Virus record (IMG/VR): IMGVR_UViG_3300037189_018980 | Coordinates: 1 to 24,114 of that record | DNA length: 24,114 nucleotides | Reading direction: 5' to 3' (one strand) | Source of the DNA: a virus | Part shown: piece after piece, positions 2,670 through 18,900 of the stretch | Position numbering within the stretch: the stretch's first letter is position 1 | Layout: each line of letters starts with the position of its first letter | The notes under the pieces: generated by a model | Seen by the model: the letters and a program-made list of their open reading frames with translations, nothing else | The model's database searches: none | What the model was told of the DNA's origin: nothing | Position numbers and translations under genes: made by a program

Positions 2670-3044
2670 ATGGCAACTTTCATTGGATTCAACACAATTG
2701 ATCAAAACAAAAAATTTACCTTGGTAGATTTTGACCTAGTCAAACGTGACCTATTGAACGCTTTAAACATACGTCAAGGTCAGTTGGTAGGAAGGCCGGC
2801 CTATGGCACAGTAATTTGGGACTATGTGTTTGAAAATCAAACACAAGAAACCGAACGCCAGATCACAGCAGAAATACAGAGAGTGGCCGGCGGAGATCCT
2901 AGATTGTTTGTCAGCAGTATTGAATATTTCCCCCAACAAAATGGCATTCTCATACAGTTAGAAATTACTGTAGTTCCCAGTACCAATGCAGAAAGATTGG
3001 CCATATTTTTTGATCAGGCACAACGCAGAGCCAGCTACGTTTAA
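2670..3044 (+). CDS. gp25: gp25-like baseplate wedge protein
   Basis: 124 residues, close to T4 gp25 (132). The GPW/gp25 family pattern is clear: RQG at residues 35-37, PAYG at 43-46, W50 and FE at 54-55, then an amphipathic helix with ETERQITAEIQRV and a final beta hairpin (GILIQLEITVV). In T4, gp25 joins the gp6/gp53 wedge to the hub and contacts the first sheath ring through a handshake strand; this family was once called an acidic lysozyme but is structural. The gene starts 15 bases after the 608-aa gene and is followed 46 bases later by gp6, its known partner. No good Shine-Dalgarno precedes ATG 2670 (only GGA at 2649-2651), so translation may depend on coupling or re-initiation. A weak late-promoter-like AGTAAATA at 2655-2662 is too close to the ATG to give a normal leader. 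Confidence 0.93.
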   Translation: MATFIGFNTIDQNKKFTLVDFDLVKRDLLNALNIRQGQLVGRPAYGTVIWDYVFENQTQETERQITAEIQRVAGGDPRLFVSSIEYFPQQNGILIQLEITVVPSTNAERLAIFFDQAQRRASYV

Positions 3045-3063
3045 GTACGCCGTTTTTGATTTC

Positions 3064-3090: not shown

Positions 3091-6000
3091 ATGGCCACAA
3101 CCACTAGACAAACTGCTATATTTGGTGTCGAAGATTGGAAACGTATCTATCAAACCTATCGCGAAGGTGATTTTCAAAGCTATGATTTTGAAACCCTGCG
3201 CAAGAGTTTTGTGGATTACTTGCGCCTGTACTATCCTGAAACATTCAATGACTACATTGAAAGTTCTGAGTTTATTGCCCTGCTGGACGTCATGGCGTTC
3301 ATGGGTCAGGCCCTTGCATTTCGTACAGATTTAAACACCAGAGAAAACTATTTAGACACAGCCGAACGCAGAGATTCAGTTGTAAAATTAGCAAATTTAG
3401 TCAGCTACACGCCCAAACGCAATACCTGTGCTTCGGGTTATCTCAAAGTGTTTTCTATAACAACAACAGAAAATGTCATTGATTACAACGGCATTAACTT
3501 GGCCAATGTCACAGTAAACTGGGCAGATCCTACAAATCTGGATTGGCAGGAACAGTTCACGGCCATCATCAACGCCAGTCTAGTAGATACTCAACGCATT
3601 GGTCGTCCTGGCGCTAGAAACACTATCCTTGGTGTTCGTACCGACGAATACACTGTAAATCTGGTTCCTGGATTTTTACCGGTCATACCCTATACAGCCA
3701 CGGTCGACGGGGTCAATATGCCGTTTGAAGCGGTCAATGCCACCGCTGCTACTGGAGATTTTGTTTTCGAACCCAGCCCACGACCCAATGGAAGATTCAA
3801 CGTGTTGTTTCGAAATGACGAGCTGGGATTTTCCAGCGCCAACACTGGATATTTTTTCTTGTTCAAGCAAGGAGTTTTGCAAAATCAAGACTTTAACTTA
3901 CCTGAGCGAGTGAGCAATCGCGCAGTAAACATCAACATTGAAGGCATCAATAACACAGACCGTTGGTTGTATCAATTAGATAATTTAGGCAACATTGCCC
4001 AAGAGTGGCAATATGTAGAAAATGTCTATGGTGCTGCCATTGAACAATTGGCCCCAGGCACACGTACAATTTTTGCTACCACGTCTAGAACCAACGATCA
4101 AATAACTCTGAACTTTGGTGATGGTGTATTCTCCACAATTCCTGTGGGTCTTTTCCGTGCCTATGTGCGTTCCAGCAATGGCCTGCAATACATTATCAAC
4201 CCAGAGGAAATGCAAAGTGTCCAGATACCAATCAGTTATGTGAGCCGTACAGGACAAATTCAAACCATAACATTTACCTGTGGTATTACAGAACCTGTGT
4301 CAAATGCTCAGGCACGCGAAACCATTGAAGAAATCAAGCAACGGGCCCCAGCTCGTTACTACACACAGAACCGCATGGTCAATGGCGAAGACTACAATAA
4401 TTTTCCATTTACTGCTTATAATTCAATTATAAAAAGCAAAGCACTCAACCGTGCTTCAATTGGTACCAGTCGATATCTTGAGTTGGTCGACAACACTGGA
4501 AAATATTCCAGCACCAACACATTCAGCAGTGACGGAGCCTTGTATGAATATGATGCTTTGCCAGCTTTTCAGTTTACTTGGTTGACCACCAACGACATCA
4601 GTGATACCATTGTTAATCGCATCAATCCTTTGTTAATATCAAACGGAGCCCAACAGTTTTATTATGCCAACTACACTAGACCTGATCTGTCAACATTAAA
4701 TTACACTTGGAATCAAAGCACTACCCTGGCCAACGAAACCACAGGTTATTTTGAAAACAGTTTTGGAATTCCACAACCCGTTGGTAGCTTTGCTGGCAAC
4801 AACATGAAATATGTAACCGTGGGCAGTCTGGTGAAATTTATCCCTCCGCCTGGTTACTATTTTGATCAAAACAATCGCTTGCAGGCCGGCGTGCCAATTC
4901 GAGCCGGTGACAAAACTGTGATCTGGGCCAGCCCCACTGCTGTATATGTTGATGGCACCAATCAAGGCGAAGGAAATTTAGAAAACGGCCAAGGTCCTGT
5001 GGTTCTCAACAATTTTGTACCCACTGGTGCGGTTGCCAATCGAGTTATTCCTTTGTTTGCCACAGATTTTAGTACAACCTTACAACAAAGCATCATTGAT
5101 CAAATCAGTTTAAATCAAAATTTTGGTTTGGGCTACGACAACCTGACATCAACTTGGTATCTAATTACTGCCAATAATCTTGACGTCAATGCGCCCTGGA
5201 GTTTGGCCGACGCTGGCGATACCTCAGGGACCAATGCCGATGCCAGTTGGTTTATACAGGCCACTACAGACGGGGAAAATTACACTGTGGTTTCTCGTAG
5301 TCTAGCTTACTACTTTGGTAGCGTTTTACAAACAAGATTTTTCTTCTTTGGTGATCAAAAAATCTACGACAGCAGAACTGGCACAGTAATTTCAGACTTT
5401 GTAAATGTGCTGAAAACCAATAGTCGTCCCGATTCAAGCCTTCCACTGGAAGGTGATATACGATTAAAAATTGTTGGACAGCCAGTCGAAAGCGACGGCT
5501 TTGTTGATGATTTTCAAGTCTTGGTTGGCTTTGAAGATCGAGACAGCGACGGCGTGCCAGACAATCCAGATTTTTTCAATGACATTGTGGCACCATCAGT
5601 AAACTCAAATCAAAAACTAGTGTTTTTGCAACAAACTGTAGATTTTGATAATTTACAAAGATATCTCTTGGTCGAGCCCGGAGTAGTTGACAGCTCTTAC
5701 GCCACCCTAAACAACATAGAACTGGTAAAAGATGAATATGTTCCGGGGCAGATATTTTATGCCTATGAACAATTGATTGAGAATGTGGTCACACCAACCT
5801 TCTACACACTGGCGCTGGACGGAAACGGAAATAGAATCTTGGTGATCAACAATGAGTTTATTGCCAGAACTGGTAGACAAGATCTATACTTTCAATACAG
5901 ACACAACAGTCCATTGACCAGTAGATTAGATCCTGGAACAACCAACATTATTGATCTGTATGTGGTGACTTTGAGTTATTACACGGCCTATCAGAATTGG

Positions 6001-6516
6001 ATCAAAGACAGTACAGGAACCGTGGCAGAACCTACTCCGCCTACCATTGATGAGTTAACAACCACTTATGCTGGATTGCAAAATTACAAAATGATTTCAG
6101 ACAACATGATTCTTAACAGCGTGGAATTCAAACCTTTGTTTGGAGCCAAAGCCAGCGAAGAATTGCGTGCCACAATTAAGGTTATAAAATCAGCCCAGAG
6201 CACTGCCAGTGTAAGCGAAATAAAAAATCTAGTGGTATCCAACATGGACGCCTATTTCAGTATTGACAAATGGGATTTTGGAGATACATTTTATTTCTCC
6301 GAATTGGCCGCATACATTCATGCACAAATTGGAGATATTGTAAGCAGTGTTGTTATAGTGCCGTTGAATCAGCAAAAATACTTTGGAGATCTTTACGAAA
6401 TACGGTCGTCTCCTAACCAAATTTTTGTCAATGCTGCCACAGTCAATGACGTTGAAGTTATTACAGCACTTACATCAACCAACATTAGAACCGCACCCGG
6501 AAGTGGAGTAATTTAA
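3091..6516 (+). CDS. gp6: gp6-like baseplate wedge protein, enlarged
   Basis: 1141 residues, against 660 for T4 gp6. ATG 3091 has a good AGGAAG ribosome site at 3082-3087. The first ~130 residues (VDYLRLYYPETFNDYIESSE and a helical RENYLDTAERRDSVVKLANL segment) and the block at ~405-470 (IKQRAPARYYTQNRMVNGED) are the conserved gp6 core, related to the baseplate J family. In T4, gp6 homodimers form the continuous ring that joins neighbouring wedges and re-arranges when the tail contracts. Residues ~470-990 are a large extra region, beta-rich, with an Asp-rich loop at 816-827 (DRDSDGVPDNPD) like a thrombospondin type 3 calcium loop. Residues ~998-1141 (from NYKMISDNMI) are a conserved C-terminal block of aquatic homologues. 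The stop overlaps the start of the giant gene by one base (TAATG), so the two are probably translationally coupled. Confidence 0.93.
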   Translation: MATTTRQTAIFGVEDWKRIYQTYREGDFQSYDFETLRKSFVDYLRLYYPETFNDYIESSEFIALLDVMAFMGQALAFRTDLNTRENYLDTAERRDSVVKLANLVSYTPKRNTCASGYLKVFSITTTENVIDYNGINLANVTVNWADPTNLDWQEQFTAIINASLVDTQRIGRPGARNTILGVRTDEYTVNLVPGFLPVIPYTATVDGVNMPFEAVNATAATGDFVFEPSPRPNGRFNVLFRNDELGFSSANTGYFFLFKQGVLQNQDFNLPERVSNRAVNINIEGINNTDRWLYQLDNLGNIAQEWQYVENVYGAAIEQLAPGTRTIFATTSRTNDQITLNFGDGVFSTIPVGLFRAYVRSSNGLQYIINPEEMQSVQIPISYVSRTGQIQTITFTCGITEPVSNAQARETIEEIKQRAPARYYTQNRMVNGEDYNNFPFTAYNSIIKSKALNRASIGTSRYLELVDNTGKYSSTNTFSSDGALYEYDALPAFQFTWLTTNDISDTIVNRINPLLISNGAQQFYYANYTRPDLSTLNYTWNQSTTLANETTGYFENSFGIPQPVGSFAGNNMKYVTVGSLVKFIPPPGYYFDQNNRLQAGVPIRAGDKTVIWASPTAVYVDGTNQGEGNLENGQGPVVLNNFVPTGAVANRVIPLFATDFSTTLQQSIIDQISLNQNFGLGYDNLTSTWYLITANNLDVNAPWSLADAGDTSGTNADASWFIQATTDGENYTVVSRSLAYYFGSVLQTRFFFFGDQKIYDSRTGTVISDFVNVLKTNSRPDSSLPLEGDIRLKIVGQPVESDGFVDDFQVLVGFEDRDSDGVPDNPDFFNDIVAPSVNSNQKLVFLQQTVDFDNLQRYLLVEPGVVDSSYATLNNIELVKDEYVPGQIFYAYEQLIENVVTPTFYTLALDGNGNRILVINNEFIARTGRQDLYFQYRHNSPLTSRLDPGTTNIIDLYVVTLSYYTAYQNWIKDSTGTVAEPTPPTIDELTTTYAGLQNYKMISDNMILNSVEFKPLFGAKASEELRATIKVIKSAQSTASVSEIKNLVVSNMDAYFSIDKWDFGDTFYFSELAAYIHAQIGDIVSSVVIVPLNQQKYFGDLYEIRSSPNQIFVNAATVNDVEVITALTSTNIRTAPGSGVI
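6505..6508 (+). promoter_or_regulatory. Shine-Dalgarno GGAG for the giant gene inside the gp6 end
   Basis: GGAG ends seven bases before ATG 6516, within the last codons of gp6. With the one-base TAATG overlap it fixes the start of the 4892-aa gene. Confidence 0.75.
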
Positions 6517-12900: not shown

Positions 12901-15900
12901 AAAGCTACAAAATTACTTCCACCGATATACTGCCAACCACTTACACCACCGAGCAAGACGCGGCTTTACCAACTGCTGGATATGTAAACATCAACGATGT
13001 TGATATCACAGCATTCAGCCTGGATGATCCTTCCAGCATCGAGGCATCTATAGACAGCATAGGTGTAGGAACTACCATTTGGGTGGCCAAAAGCAATAGC
13101 TATGACTGGAATGTTTATAGATGTGCCAAAGTTCCAGGACAAGCTACCACAATCACTGACAATTTAAATTCTACCACACTGGTAGAATTTAATGCTTCTC
13201 ATGATCTGTCTGTGGGAGATTTAATTATAATCAAGTTTTTTGACAACAGTATCAATGGAGTGTATCGTGTGTTGTCAGTGCCAGGTGTGACCAGTATTGT
13301 AATTGCTTATGCATTTACAAATTCAAATCAAACGTCTGTGTCTGGCACCGGTATTGTATTTTATTTGCAGAGTATGCGAGTGGCACAAGCCAGCGACACA
13401 GCCTTGTTGCCGTACTCTAACTCTCTTATTCCGGGCGCTCGCGCCTATGTAGACAGTTTTGTCAATGGACATTGGGCTGTAATTGAAAAACAAAGTCCAT
13501 TTGTATCCTATGATCTTATCAGTCCTGATCCTTTGGAATTGAATTCCAGATACGGAGTCAGCGTTGCTCAAACTGAAAATTTGTTCTCGGCCCTGATAGG
13601 AAGTCCTGAAATCAATGGATTACCTGGAAAAGTTTACGCATATCGAGTAGACGAAAATCAAAATTATGTTCAAGAGGTTGCTCTGACCTTGCCAGCTGTT
13701 GATGTGGTTGGATATGGCAACACAGTAAAGTTTGGAAAAAACAATTGGGCTGTGGCTGGAGCCAGTGCCAGCCGTAACAACACCGGCTACGCAGCCACTT
13801 TGTTTAGAGATTCAACAACCGGTGGATACACCACCACACAATTGTTGCTGTCTCCCGATCAAAATTTTGGAACTACTCAATTTGGCACTGCTGTGGCCAT
13901 GAGTCTGGATGAAAGATGGATGTACATTGGTGCTCCCTTTACAGACACCGGAGGAGCAGTTCATGCATATGGACGAGTAAATGTTGAGCAACAACAAGTG
14001 GTTTATAGGACCGATGGCACTACCAAGACCTTTAATTGGTCCAATCACATAGCCGTAAACTATGCGCAACCAGATCAGTTAATTGTTATCTTAAACAATC
14101 AGACCCTGACTGCCAATGTTGATTTTACAGTTGATGTTAATAATGTGATTTTTAATGTTGCACCGGCTGCAAAATCATTGTTGACCATTGTGCGTAGACA
14201 ATCAATTCAGTTGGACAAACAAGATTATTACAATGTTGCACCCAATACAACAAGTCCCCCTGGCGGCACCGGAGCCAAATTTACAGTCAACGTGGTACGT
14301 GGGCAGTACAATGCAACTATCACAGATGCAGGCAGTGGATATGCGCCCGGCGATGTACTTACAATCCTGGGCACACAGCTCAATGGCTCGGCTCCGGCCA
14401 ACAACTTAGTGATTACTGTGACCGGTGTCAACACCGGCATTGAGTCGTTTACATTTACAGGATCTGGCCCTGTGACCACAGCGCCGTGGTCATTGAATCC
14501 ATATCTGTACACAGCCACCGATATCTATTCATTTACAGTGTTGGTCAACAGTGTGATACAACGTCCAAAAATTGACTATGAGTTTGACAGTGACAGTACC
14601 ATAGGCACTCAGGACCTGGTGTTTTTAACCAATCCTCCGCCTGGTGCAATTATAGATGTAATTGCCGAAACCTACTGGCAATATTGCGATACCATTTCTG
14701 TAACAGCTTTGTCTGCTGATTTAAAATTTGGCATTAGTTTGTCAACCACCACAGATGGCCGTCAATTGTTTATAGGAGCCAGCAGAGACAGCGCAGTGGA
14801 TGCCAATAATTTGATCATTAGAAAGGCTGGATCTGTTTATGCATTTGATCGCAGTGTGGTCCGTTATTTTGTACAAGATGTTGACACGGTAGTCTATGCT
14901 ATACCTACTCCAGTTACTGGACCAGTAAGTGTGATGTTGAATAGTCAGTTCCTAAACATCAGAGAGTTCACAGATGCCAATGGGTTTGTGACCATTCAGT
15001 ATATCAATGGCGGAGTTGACGTTGATCTTTTCAACAATGAAATTACAATTTTATCGTCAACCAGTTTGACTGTGGGCGACTCAATTGAGATTGAAACCAA
15101 TCAATTTCAACAAATACAAAAAATCACAGCCGATTCGCCAAAAGACGAAAGTGCATTTGGCACAGCAGTTGACATTTGCCCAACCAATTGTAGTTTATAT
15201 GTAGGTGCACCCACCGATAGTGTTTTGGTCAATGGACTTTTTATTCCACAATCTGGATCAGCACAGCGAAGCGTAAATCAAAGCAGAGTATATGGTGTTA
15301 TCACCAGTCTGATAGCCAATCCGCCCTTAACAGCCGGAGATTTGCTAAGGATCAACAACGTAGAAGTTGCGGTTCCGTCCACTTATGTTAAAGACGGAAT
15401 AACTTTACCCGGTAATAATGTGGCTGGACTAGTGGCCGCCATCAATTCTGCTGGAATTCCTAACGTTATTGCCACACCCACTCCCAATGTTGAATTTATT
15501 GGCAATGGCATAACCAAGGTGTTTAATGTTGGCACCATCTACACTGACGCTGACAGTTACACTCCACAAGTATATGTTGGCAGTGTTTTACAAATTAACA
15601 ATGTTGATTACAGTTATGACAACAATACTCAACAGATATTTTTTGTAAGTGCTCCGGTCAATGGAAGTATCATAGTTGTGGTATCGGGCCGAATGACTCT
15701 TGGTATTAAAAACTCAGAGGCAGCCACCGGCGGAAACAAGCTAACAGTATTGCCCGGCACTTCAAATTCAGTATTCAATGACTTGGGATTTGAAACATTT
15801 GTGTTTACTCAACAAATAACAAGTCCACAACCCAGTGCGTATGCCTTGTTTGGACAATCATTGAGCGTCAACAGCAATGCCACCAATATTGTGATTGGAG

Positions 15901-18900
15901 CCCCCAACGGCAACGTGTACGAACCTACTACGTTTGACGGTGGAGAAACTTATTTTGATCAACGCAGTACTGTATTTTCAAACTTGGTACAAAACAGCGG
16001 AGTTGTTTATACCTATGATTACCTGCCCAGTGCCACAGACACCATAAATGATCCAGGACAATTTGCATTTGGACAACAAATTTATTATGATGAGCTGGAC
16101 AGTTTTGATCAGTTTGGTTTGGGATTGAGCTACAGAAATGGTAGGCTGGCTGTGGGGGCACCTGGAAACGATGCTGGTGACAGCTCAGTCAACTATGGAT
16201 TGGTATCAATATTTAATAATCCAACTAGAAGTCCAGCCTGGGCTGTGATTCATGAGCAACAGCCAGTGGTTGATGTAAATTTGATCAACGGTGTGTTCAT
16301 GTATGATCGATTGACTTCAAACACACAAACTTATTTTGATTTTATTGATCCATTGCAAGGAAAAATTCTTGGTGCAGCACGCAGAAACATAGACTACATT
16401 GGTGCGGTAGATCCTGCAAACTACAACGTAGGATCAGTTCGTAACAACGGCAACAGTTGGGGATCTGAACATGTGGGAGAAATATGGTGGGACACTGACA
16501 CTGTTAGATTTATAGATCCCAATCAAGATGACATTGTGTACGCCAGCCGCAGATGGGGACAAACATTCCCTGGCAGCAGTGTAGATGTTTATCAATGGAT
16601 ATCCAGTTCAGTTCCGCCGGTGTCATACACAGGACCTGGTATTCCTTTGAGCACCAGTAGTTATTCAGTGCGTAGCACTCTCAACAACGAAAATATATTT
16701 GTAACTTCTTATTATTTTTGGGCACGAGGAATCAATACCATCAACACCAAGGCAGGTAAAACCTTAAGCACCACAGGAATTTCAAGATACATTGAAAGTC
16801 CACGTGCCAGTGGCATTCCATATATTGCTGCTTTGAACAGTAGCACCATTGCCATATACAACGGTCTTGAATATATTTCTGCTGCAGACACAATATTGCA
16901 TGTTGACTATGACCGTGAGCTCACAGATGCCAATATTCATACGGAATACCAGCTTATTGCTGACGGAGTTCCTGACAGTTTCTTAAACGACACCCTGTAT
17001 CGCAAATTGCAAGACAGCTTTTGCGGAGCAAACTCTCAAGGTGCTGTTGTTCCAGACCCGTTTTTAAGCCCACCGGAAAGATATGGAGTTCAGTTTAGGC
17101 CAAGACAAAGCATGTTTGTCGATAGATTCATGGCCTTACAAAATTATCTCACAAGAGTAAATGCGGTGCTAAAGCAGTACCCAATTATTGAAACCAGCAG
17201 ATTGAATTTGTTAAACAGCGAAGAGCCAGAACCCAGCTCTGGCAGCGGAGCGTGGAACAAACGAGTGGCCAATCTTGAAGAATTAAGTTATCAAAATCTT
17301 GAGGTTGTGGATTTTGGGTATAGATATCTGGTTGACAGCGATAGTTCGCAAAATGGCTTATGGACCATCTATGAGGTAGTGTCATCGGATACAGTTGCTG
17401 GACAAAAAACATTGTTGTTGATCCAGGTTCAAAACTACGATACAAAACTGTACTGGGACCACATTGACTGGTACAAGGTTGGCTACAACAGCAGCATCAA
17501 ACCCATAGCAGAAGTTCCTGTATATTCGGCCTTGGACACTTTGAGTTTGAGCACAGTGCCTGTTGGCAGTAGTGTGAGAGTTTCTGCCAATGCACAAGGA
17601 AAATTTGAAATTTATCTGCGTACAGATCTAGGTTGGGAACGAGTGGGTCTTGAGGATGGCACATTACAATTCAAAGAAGAATTGTGGAATTACAGTGTTG
17701 GTAATTTTGGGTTTGATGTTGAAGTGTTTGATGCACAGTATTTTGATCAAGAACCTGTGATAGAAACAAGAAAAGTCATACAAGCTATCAATGAAGAATT
17801 ACTTGTTGATGAATTGGCCATTGAACGTAATCGTGCTTTGATTTTGATGTTCAATTATGTCTACAGCGAGTTTACGGCCCCAGAGTGGCTGATCAAGACC
17901 AGCTTGATAGATGTTGAACACAAGATAAGAGCCTTGTTGCCATTCCAATCGTACTTGCAAGATAATCAAACTTTTGTGCTTGATTATATTCAAGAAGTCA
18001 AACCTTATCATGTTCAGATTAGAGAATTCAACTTGTCCTATTTTGGACAAGACGATTACCCAGGTTATATCAGCGATTTTGATGTGCCGGCCTACTATAA
18101 TATCACTTTGCCAATACCGGCCTACACCAGTCCGGTGCTGACTCCTTACACAGCATCTGGCAGTTTGATTGAATCATTCGATAGCGATGCTGGGCCCGAA
18201 GCAGAAATCTGGACACAGGAACCCTGGAAGGCATGGTTCAACAACTACTTGTTAGAATTACAATCGGTCAGTGTGGTCGACGGCGGGTTGGGATACACTG
18301 TGGCTCCACAAGTGGAAATTCAAGGAACTTGTATTGAAGAACCTGTGCTGGAGGCAGTGGTCAACAGTGCTGGCAAAGTAGTGGCAATCAATATAATTGA
18401 TCCTGGATTTGGCTTTTCAACCAACTGTGTTATAACCTTGGTTGGCGGCAATGGCGTTGGAGCACGTGCTGTGGCAGTCCTGGGCAACAATCTTGTTCGC
18501 AGTATTGGGACCACAATCAAATATGACCGTTGCGAATATTCACGAACAATTGTTGATTGGGAGCCAAATGTAAATTATGACAATGGAACAATTGTAAGAT
18601 ATCTCAATCGACTATGGCAAGCCGACAGCGATGACAGTACTGGCATTGAAGGGCCAACCTTTGATATCACACAGTGGCAAAAAGTTGATCCTGGATTGGT
18701 AAGTCTACAGTATGACAGTCAAGGCAATTACTACGAAATAGTACCAGGCAGCACTTACATCAGCGGTGCCAATAGAACCATGGGATACTACACACCCACG
18801 GTCAATGAACCCGGGCTGAGTTTGCCATTGTTGATTGATGGAATAGACTATCCAGGAGTGCAGGTAAAAGGAGTTGAATTCAATCAGAACACTGGGTTTG

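Follow-up and report, generated by a model that had tools for sequence, protein, structure and literature searches.

A predicted seven-bladed FG-GAP_2 propeller with changing inserts in the giant baseplate-region protein of uncultured jumbo phages

The baseplate-region locus and the repeats of its giant protein

The window, by which we mean the whole stretch of DNA analysed, is an IMG/VR virus record of 24,114 bases. It begins with genes that match phage baseplate families: the end of a gp5-like gene (1-831), a gp25-like wedge protein (2670-3044) and, directly before the giant gene, a gp6-like wedge protein (3091-6516). The giant gene (P0002; 6516..21194, plus strand) is an intact ORF of 4892 amino acids, whose residues 999-1933 match the virion structural protein profile phrog_10938 with an E-value of 0. 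Fibre-like genes follow downstream, still within the window. The orthologue in the Pseudomonas phage PA5oct, gp355, occupies the same position after two wedge genes and is annotated with an ESI-MS/MS detection note, which marks it as a virion protein. A previous description made from the letters of this DNA only (the sequence-only reading) had called the product a phage baseplate protein, in agreement with this gene order and with the mass-spectrometry note. When profiles of three conserved regions were used, the giant protein matched neither T4 gp7 nor other solved baseplate proteins, so that its putative placement in the baseplate is based on gene order; it resembles the T4 gp7 wedge protein in that respect alone, and a homology to gp7, which we had considered, was undetectable. 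Elsewhere in the giant protein there is a CBM_5_12-like carbohydrate-binding stretch (two stretches; window 18558-18620, residues 4015-4035), which scored just below the cut-off (E 2e-5) and is present in 8 of the 10 giant proteins scanned, from cultured as well as uncultured phages.

Seven FG-GAP repeats span residues 2337-3235 of this ORF. Their FG/YG...GA(P/S) motifs start with YG at residues 2346 and 2400 and with FG at 2456, 2738, 2881, 3112 and 3200, giving steps of 54, 56, 282, 143, 231 and 88 residues. These are the values reported previously, although only the first two steps, rather than three, are of blade size. Pfam-A analysis revealed FG-GAP_2 (PF14312, curated cut-off 23) at 45.4 bits (E 1e-11) for the whole of P0002 and at 52.4 bits, in four stretches, for the segment alone (P0001); the protein thus scores over the curated cut-off and holds several repeats of this family. 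PF01839, the calcium-type FG-GAP family of integrin alpha, for which a search had been proposed, was not among the Pfam-A matches up to E 1. A regular-expression scan of the motif returned 8 starts in the segment (overlaps counted) and zero in the remainder of the giant protein; 2000 shuffles had 0.14 starts on average and at most 3. A profile of the blades, partly built from the window's own blades, gave exactly seven matches across the 4892 residues, with a best shuffle score of 2.3 bits (20 shuffles); the Pfam result is independent of that profile. These results confirm the seven motifs originally noticed in one stretch.

Neither the segment nor a divergent relative had a match by tblastn among 50,697 phage records. 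The genome_contigs search for prophage or cellular close relatives found none, and a single-sequence search of the PDB with the segment found nothing. With the segment alignment, a profile search of the entire PDB placed integrin alpha-IIb at the top rank, weakly (E 0.011). Among the papers covered by our literature search, none dealt with FG-GAP repeats in baseplates of phages.

Predicted fold and placement of the inserts

An AlphaFold2 model of residues 2276-3262, based on a 134-sequence alignment, had a mean pLDDT of 94.1 and a pTM of 0.92. According to the DSSP strand order, blades 1-6 are built as A-B-C-D and blade 7 as A-C plus flank strands, so that the prediction contains seven four-stranded blades in one closed ring, with the pairing of the closing strand inferred. 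Foldseek matched the model to integrin alpha headpieces with target TM-scores of 0.57-0.63 (9ind_A 0.63, 4wk4_A 0.59). Among the viral propellers matched were a Harvfovirus protein of 411 residues (TMt 0.76) and, with 17% identity, A0A6J5L8L4, a distant relative from an uncultured phage. These fold matches are to complete propellers of seven blades. Within the limits of prediction, a seven-bladed propeller of the integrin-alpha type is nearly certain, as the sequence-only reading had suggested.

The propeller is preceded by N-flank strands (..ARAYVD..HWAVIEK; residues 2287-2328, 13374..13499; here and below, window positions are on the plus strand), which are found in the alignment and the model and also in L234, a relative that lacks the propeller. 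The next strand (residues 2329-2336, 13500..13523; DSSP strand 55-60 of the model) would, through residues 2330-2335, close blade 7 in the manner of a velcro, judging from the strand order and the fold matches. Blade 1 (residues 2337-2396, 13524..13703) and blade 2 (residues 2397-2452, 13704..13871) follow without interruption. Strands A-C of blade 3 (residues 2453-2489, 13872..13982) are separated from strand D (residues 2719-2728, 14670..14699; model) by insert 1 (13983..14669), in which model and alignment resolve three modules, one more than the sequence-only reading had counted: a T7-fibre-like module (2495-2563), a GSGY module (2584-2652) and a second T7-fibre-like module (2654-2720). 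Strands A-C of blade 4 (residues 2729-2787, 14700..14876) lead into insert 2 (14877..15074), which is carried on long C and D strands of 14-15 residues that would lift it off the disc; alignment and model place a conserved IEIETNQFQQIQ in strand D of this blade (residues 2854-2872, 15075..15131). Between strands A-C (residues 2873-2927, 15132..15296) and strand D (residues 3092-3102, 15789..15821; model) of blade 5 lies insert 3 (15297..15788). One module each had been expected after blades 4 and 5, but the blade 5 insert is an outer module with a T7-fibre-like module (2991-3059) nested in it. A hook-IN-like identity of the outer module, suspected by eye, had no Pfam support. Blade 6 (residues 3103-3191, 15822..16088), strands A-C of blade 7 (residues 3192-3235, 16089..16220) and the C-flank strand (PAWAVIHEQQP; residues 3236-3250, 16221..16265), which L234 retains, complete the region.

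In the model, blades 3, 4 and 5 carry all large inserts between their C and D strands, which places these inserts on one face, on one side of the disc. The opposite face bears the B-C loop of blade 6, GAPNGNVYEPTTFDGGETYFDQRSTVF, which has 28 residues and an almost constant length and is a candidate contact site.

The three T7-fibre-like modules match one another, and the same module recurs in the giant protein at residues 4473-4518, 4616-4649 and 4792-4856. The insert region of one relative (L209) matched PF03906, the N-terminal domain of the T7 tail fibre, just below its cut-off, with E 7e-5 and 23 bits (cut-off 25.2); for the window's own inserts, PF03906 was not among the Pfam-A matches listed.

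Conservation of blades, turnover of inserts and origin

Scans of viral contigs located at least 184 places encoding relatives of the segment; for the C-flank the number was at least 478. Among the loci fetched, 221 giant proteins span both flanks, 135 of them distinct. The seven FG positions are filled in 134 of these 135, in accordance with the conserved motif count anticipated from the single sequence. At a threshold of 3 bits, 129 of 134 relatives had all seven blade-profile matches and no extra one. Three of the five exceptions (L243, L245 and L249) have seven repeats in another register, with blade 3 free of an insert and a large insert after blade 4; one repeat each in L245 and L249 scores only 1.4 and 0.5 bits, respectively. 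The model of L243 was poorer and only of fair quality (pLDDT 72, pTM 0.73), because the inserts of this protein come after blade 4 and not after blade 3, a place at which the alignment slips; the part where it fails is disordered in the model. FG-GAP_2 was detected in all eight relatives scanned with Pfam, over the cut-off in seven. An arrangement of chance or degenerate motifs that form no propeller could be argued from the weakness of each repeat alone and from single matches in DNA searches, which fall below the family cut-off, but in view of the family score, the conservation in 134 relatives and the confident model, we find it hardly credible.

Across the relatives, the first two steps (1-2 and 2-3) measure close to 55-57 residues and the last one (6-7) measures 88. 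The lengths of step 3-4 (169 to 409) and step 5-6 (146 to 270), by contrast, fall into discrete classes. On a FastTree phylogeny of the flanks, computed without a support test, insert 1 (long or short) changed state at least 14 times and insert 3 (three classes) at least 18 times. In the alignment, the relative L002 lacks the GSGY middle module of insert 1, and L004 lacks both this module and the nested one of insert 3. Constant blade steps together with frequent changes of insert state indicate that the blades are constant and the inserts modular, the very pattern that the sequence-only reading had proposed to look for in homologues.

All propeller-bearing sequences formed one fully supported clade in a tree of about 1400 flank residues. 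Eight cultured jumbo phages (PA5oct, Atu_ph07, Phosso, RaK2, PBECO4, CBB, SCTP-2 and Vibrio 2.275.O), a sample of the 84 records with the shared core, possess the giant protein, in which FG-GAP repeats are absent. In L234 (6683-17893) the whole propeller is missing as a natural deletion and both flank strands are retained (GARVWVN..HAVYQK and AWAMLHE, about 30 residues apart); this is a 19-kb contig whose ORF runs to the contig end, so that a chimeric assembly is conceivable. The simplest reading of these sequences would be one gain of the propeller on the stem of the uncultured jumbo-phage clade and one loss in L234.

A plausible candidate source of the inserted propeller is a set of stand-alone proteins that hold about seven FG-GAP_2-like repeats in about 393 residues. 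They are encoded by two phages that share the giant protein: gp320 of the Agrobacterium phage Atu_ph07 (393 aa) and proteins 129 and 130 of Phosso (394 and 392 aa). They differ from the inserted propeller in being separate genes, and they have no significant pairwise match to it. The Atu_ph07 gene (NC_042013.1, 243018-244199; L254:5019-6200) is annotated 'hemagglutinin protein' and adjoins annotated tail sheath genes. The Sinorhizobium phage Phosso (PV764938.1, 48338-68978, L255, and 92124-94532, L256) has 55 FG-GAP_2 matches. The majority fall in two giant proteins encoded next to each other (3162 and 3692 aa) and the others in the two compact proteins; all four are annotated as hypothetical. 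The 3692-aa protein (108) resembles the bacterial 14-repeat protein described below with E 3e-46.

Comparison with known propellers and possible function

The FG-GAP_2 protein WP_207563213.1, encoded by a Sulfurimonas aquatica plasmid, shares with the phage propeller the repeat family, the calcium-free A-B loop and a repeat number that is a multiple of seven (14). Cellular FG-GAP_2 repeats are tandem, near-identical and about 56 residues long, whereas the phage blades have diverged and three are split by inserts. In plasmid pSULFM1 (L253:1-2703) the 14 repeats form two runs of seven, with a stretch between them that appears cadherin-like by eye, and the gene lies beside an integrase gene. DxDxDG-type calcium loops between strands A and B are lacking from the window's seven blades, and the pattern occurs in only 5 of 938 blades (absent in 933). 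The loops had indeed been described as absent, but also as a departure from cellular FG-GAP proteins; since the Sulfurimonas protein is likewise without them, their absence is a trait of the FG-GAP_2 family and not specific to the phages. The integrin alpha propeller (PF01839-type; PDB 9ind and 4wk4) also has seven FG-GAP blades, and the phage propeller differs from it in having no calcium loops, integrin leg or I domains and in belonging to a phage virion protein.

Propellers with inserted sandwiches are already known from phage tails, and the design is thus less unusual than initially supposed. The T7 gp12 nozzle is a seven-bladed propeller with velcro closure and an excursion from blade 3 (PMC6702177), and the gp44 muzzle of a crAss-like phage carries Ig-like domains both within blade 3 and between that blade and blade 2 (PMC10172136). 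Both line the central tail channel of short-tailed phages in six copies around the DNA, in contrast to the myophage baseplate-region protein described here. FG-GAP repeats are not reported in the passages of the two papers that we compared, and our comparison concerns the architectures described there. New features of the jumbo-myophage propeller are its FG-GAP type, its location within a giant protein of the baseplate region and the gain and loss of modules on a fixed disc.

Where present, the inserts are about as conserved as the blades, and in pairs of relatives matched by flank identity they are only slightly more divergent. In the same matched pairs, blades and inserts both diverge faster than the flanks, gp6, a 205-aa protein and the alignable part of the fibre-like protein encoded downstream; these rate contrasts are rough, because the flanks were picked for conservation and the fibre was compared on its alignable part only. 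Such a pattern would suit an exposed part, not a hypervariable receptor-binding tip, or the faster evolution could instead reflect relaxed constraint.

We consider the probable and best explanation to be that the closed FG-GAP_2 propeller acts as a rigid, exposed tail scaffold carrying fibre-like modules. In this explanation a calcium-free, integrin-alpha-like, seven-bladed propeller entered the giant protein a single time, in a lineage of uncultured jumbo myophages, and lies between two flank strands that exist without it too. The disc may be held at the edge of the baseplate, its C-D face displaying the fibre-like sandwich modules, which would touch the cell envelope or further proteins of the tail when the phage adsorbs. 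The sequence family, the repeat number, the model, the single gain and the turnover of modules on one face are what the analysis shows; they argue for this explanation, as do the T7-fibre-like module that recurs in the protein and the faster evolution of blades and inserts, and the scaffold function is inferred.

The similar conservation of blades and inserts could also fit a structural spacer or clamp inside the baseplate, with disc and inserts locking the wedge subunits and making no host contact. The propellers of T7 gp12, which contact subunits and gate the channel (PMC6702177), would be a precedent. We regard this as somewhat unlikely, since the domain is dispensable, being lost in L234 and absent from the giant protein of cultured relatives, and since frequent gain and loss of modules fits an exposed part better than a tight interface.

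Host recognition by the propeller or its inserts, as originally put forward, is possible, although inserts that are conserved much like the blades and diverge only slightly faster do not bear it out. In one form of this idea the propeller is itself the receptor-binding part, its face opposite the inserts binding a host protein or sugar as integrin heads do and the inserts only positioning it. In its favour are the presence of integrin alpha propellers among the closest solved structures, the faster divergence of the domain compared with the neighbouring wedge genes and the CBM_5_12-like stretches elsewhere in the same protein. Against it, no loop is conspicuously hypervariable, the B-C loop of blade 6 on that other face combines near-constant length with ordinary conservation, the calcium sites are absent and the downstream fibre-like genes are better candidates for receptor binding, which makes this form unlikely. 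Bolder, and in our judgement improbable, is the proposal that the baseplate bears an adhesive head like the integrin alpha propeller, one face binding a host ligand while module swaps on the opposite face retune the array; if true, this would be a phage-side counterpart of integrin adhesion.

For the scaffold explanation that we favour, the findings suggest what part of a protein of nearly 5000 residues, annotated only as a virion structural protein, might do. An FG-GAP propeller of the integrin-alpha type is now placed in the baseplate region of contractile-tailed jumbo phages. The propeller recurs in more than 100 distinct uncultured relatives, has a single clear origin and one natural loss, and keeps its number of blades while the inserts change. 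It is therefore a good system for studying how tail modules can be added and exchanged in phages while the baseplate stays intact.
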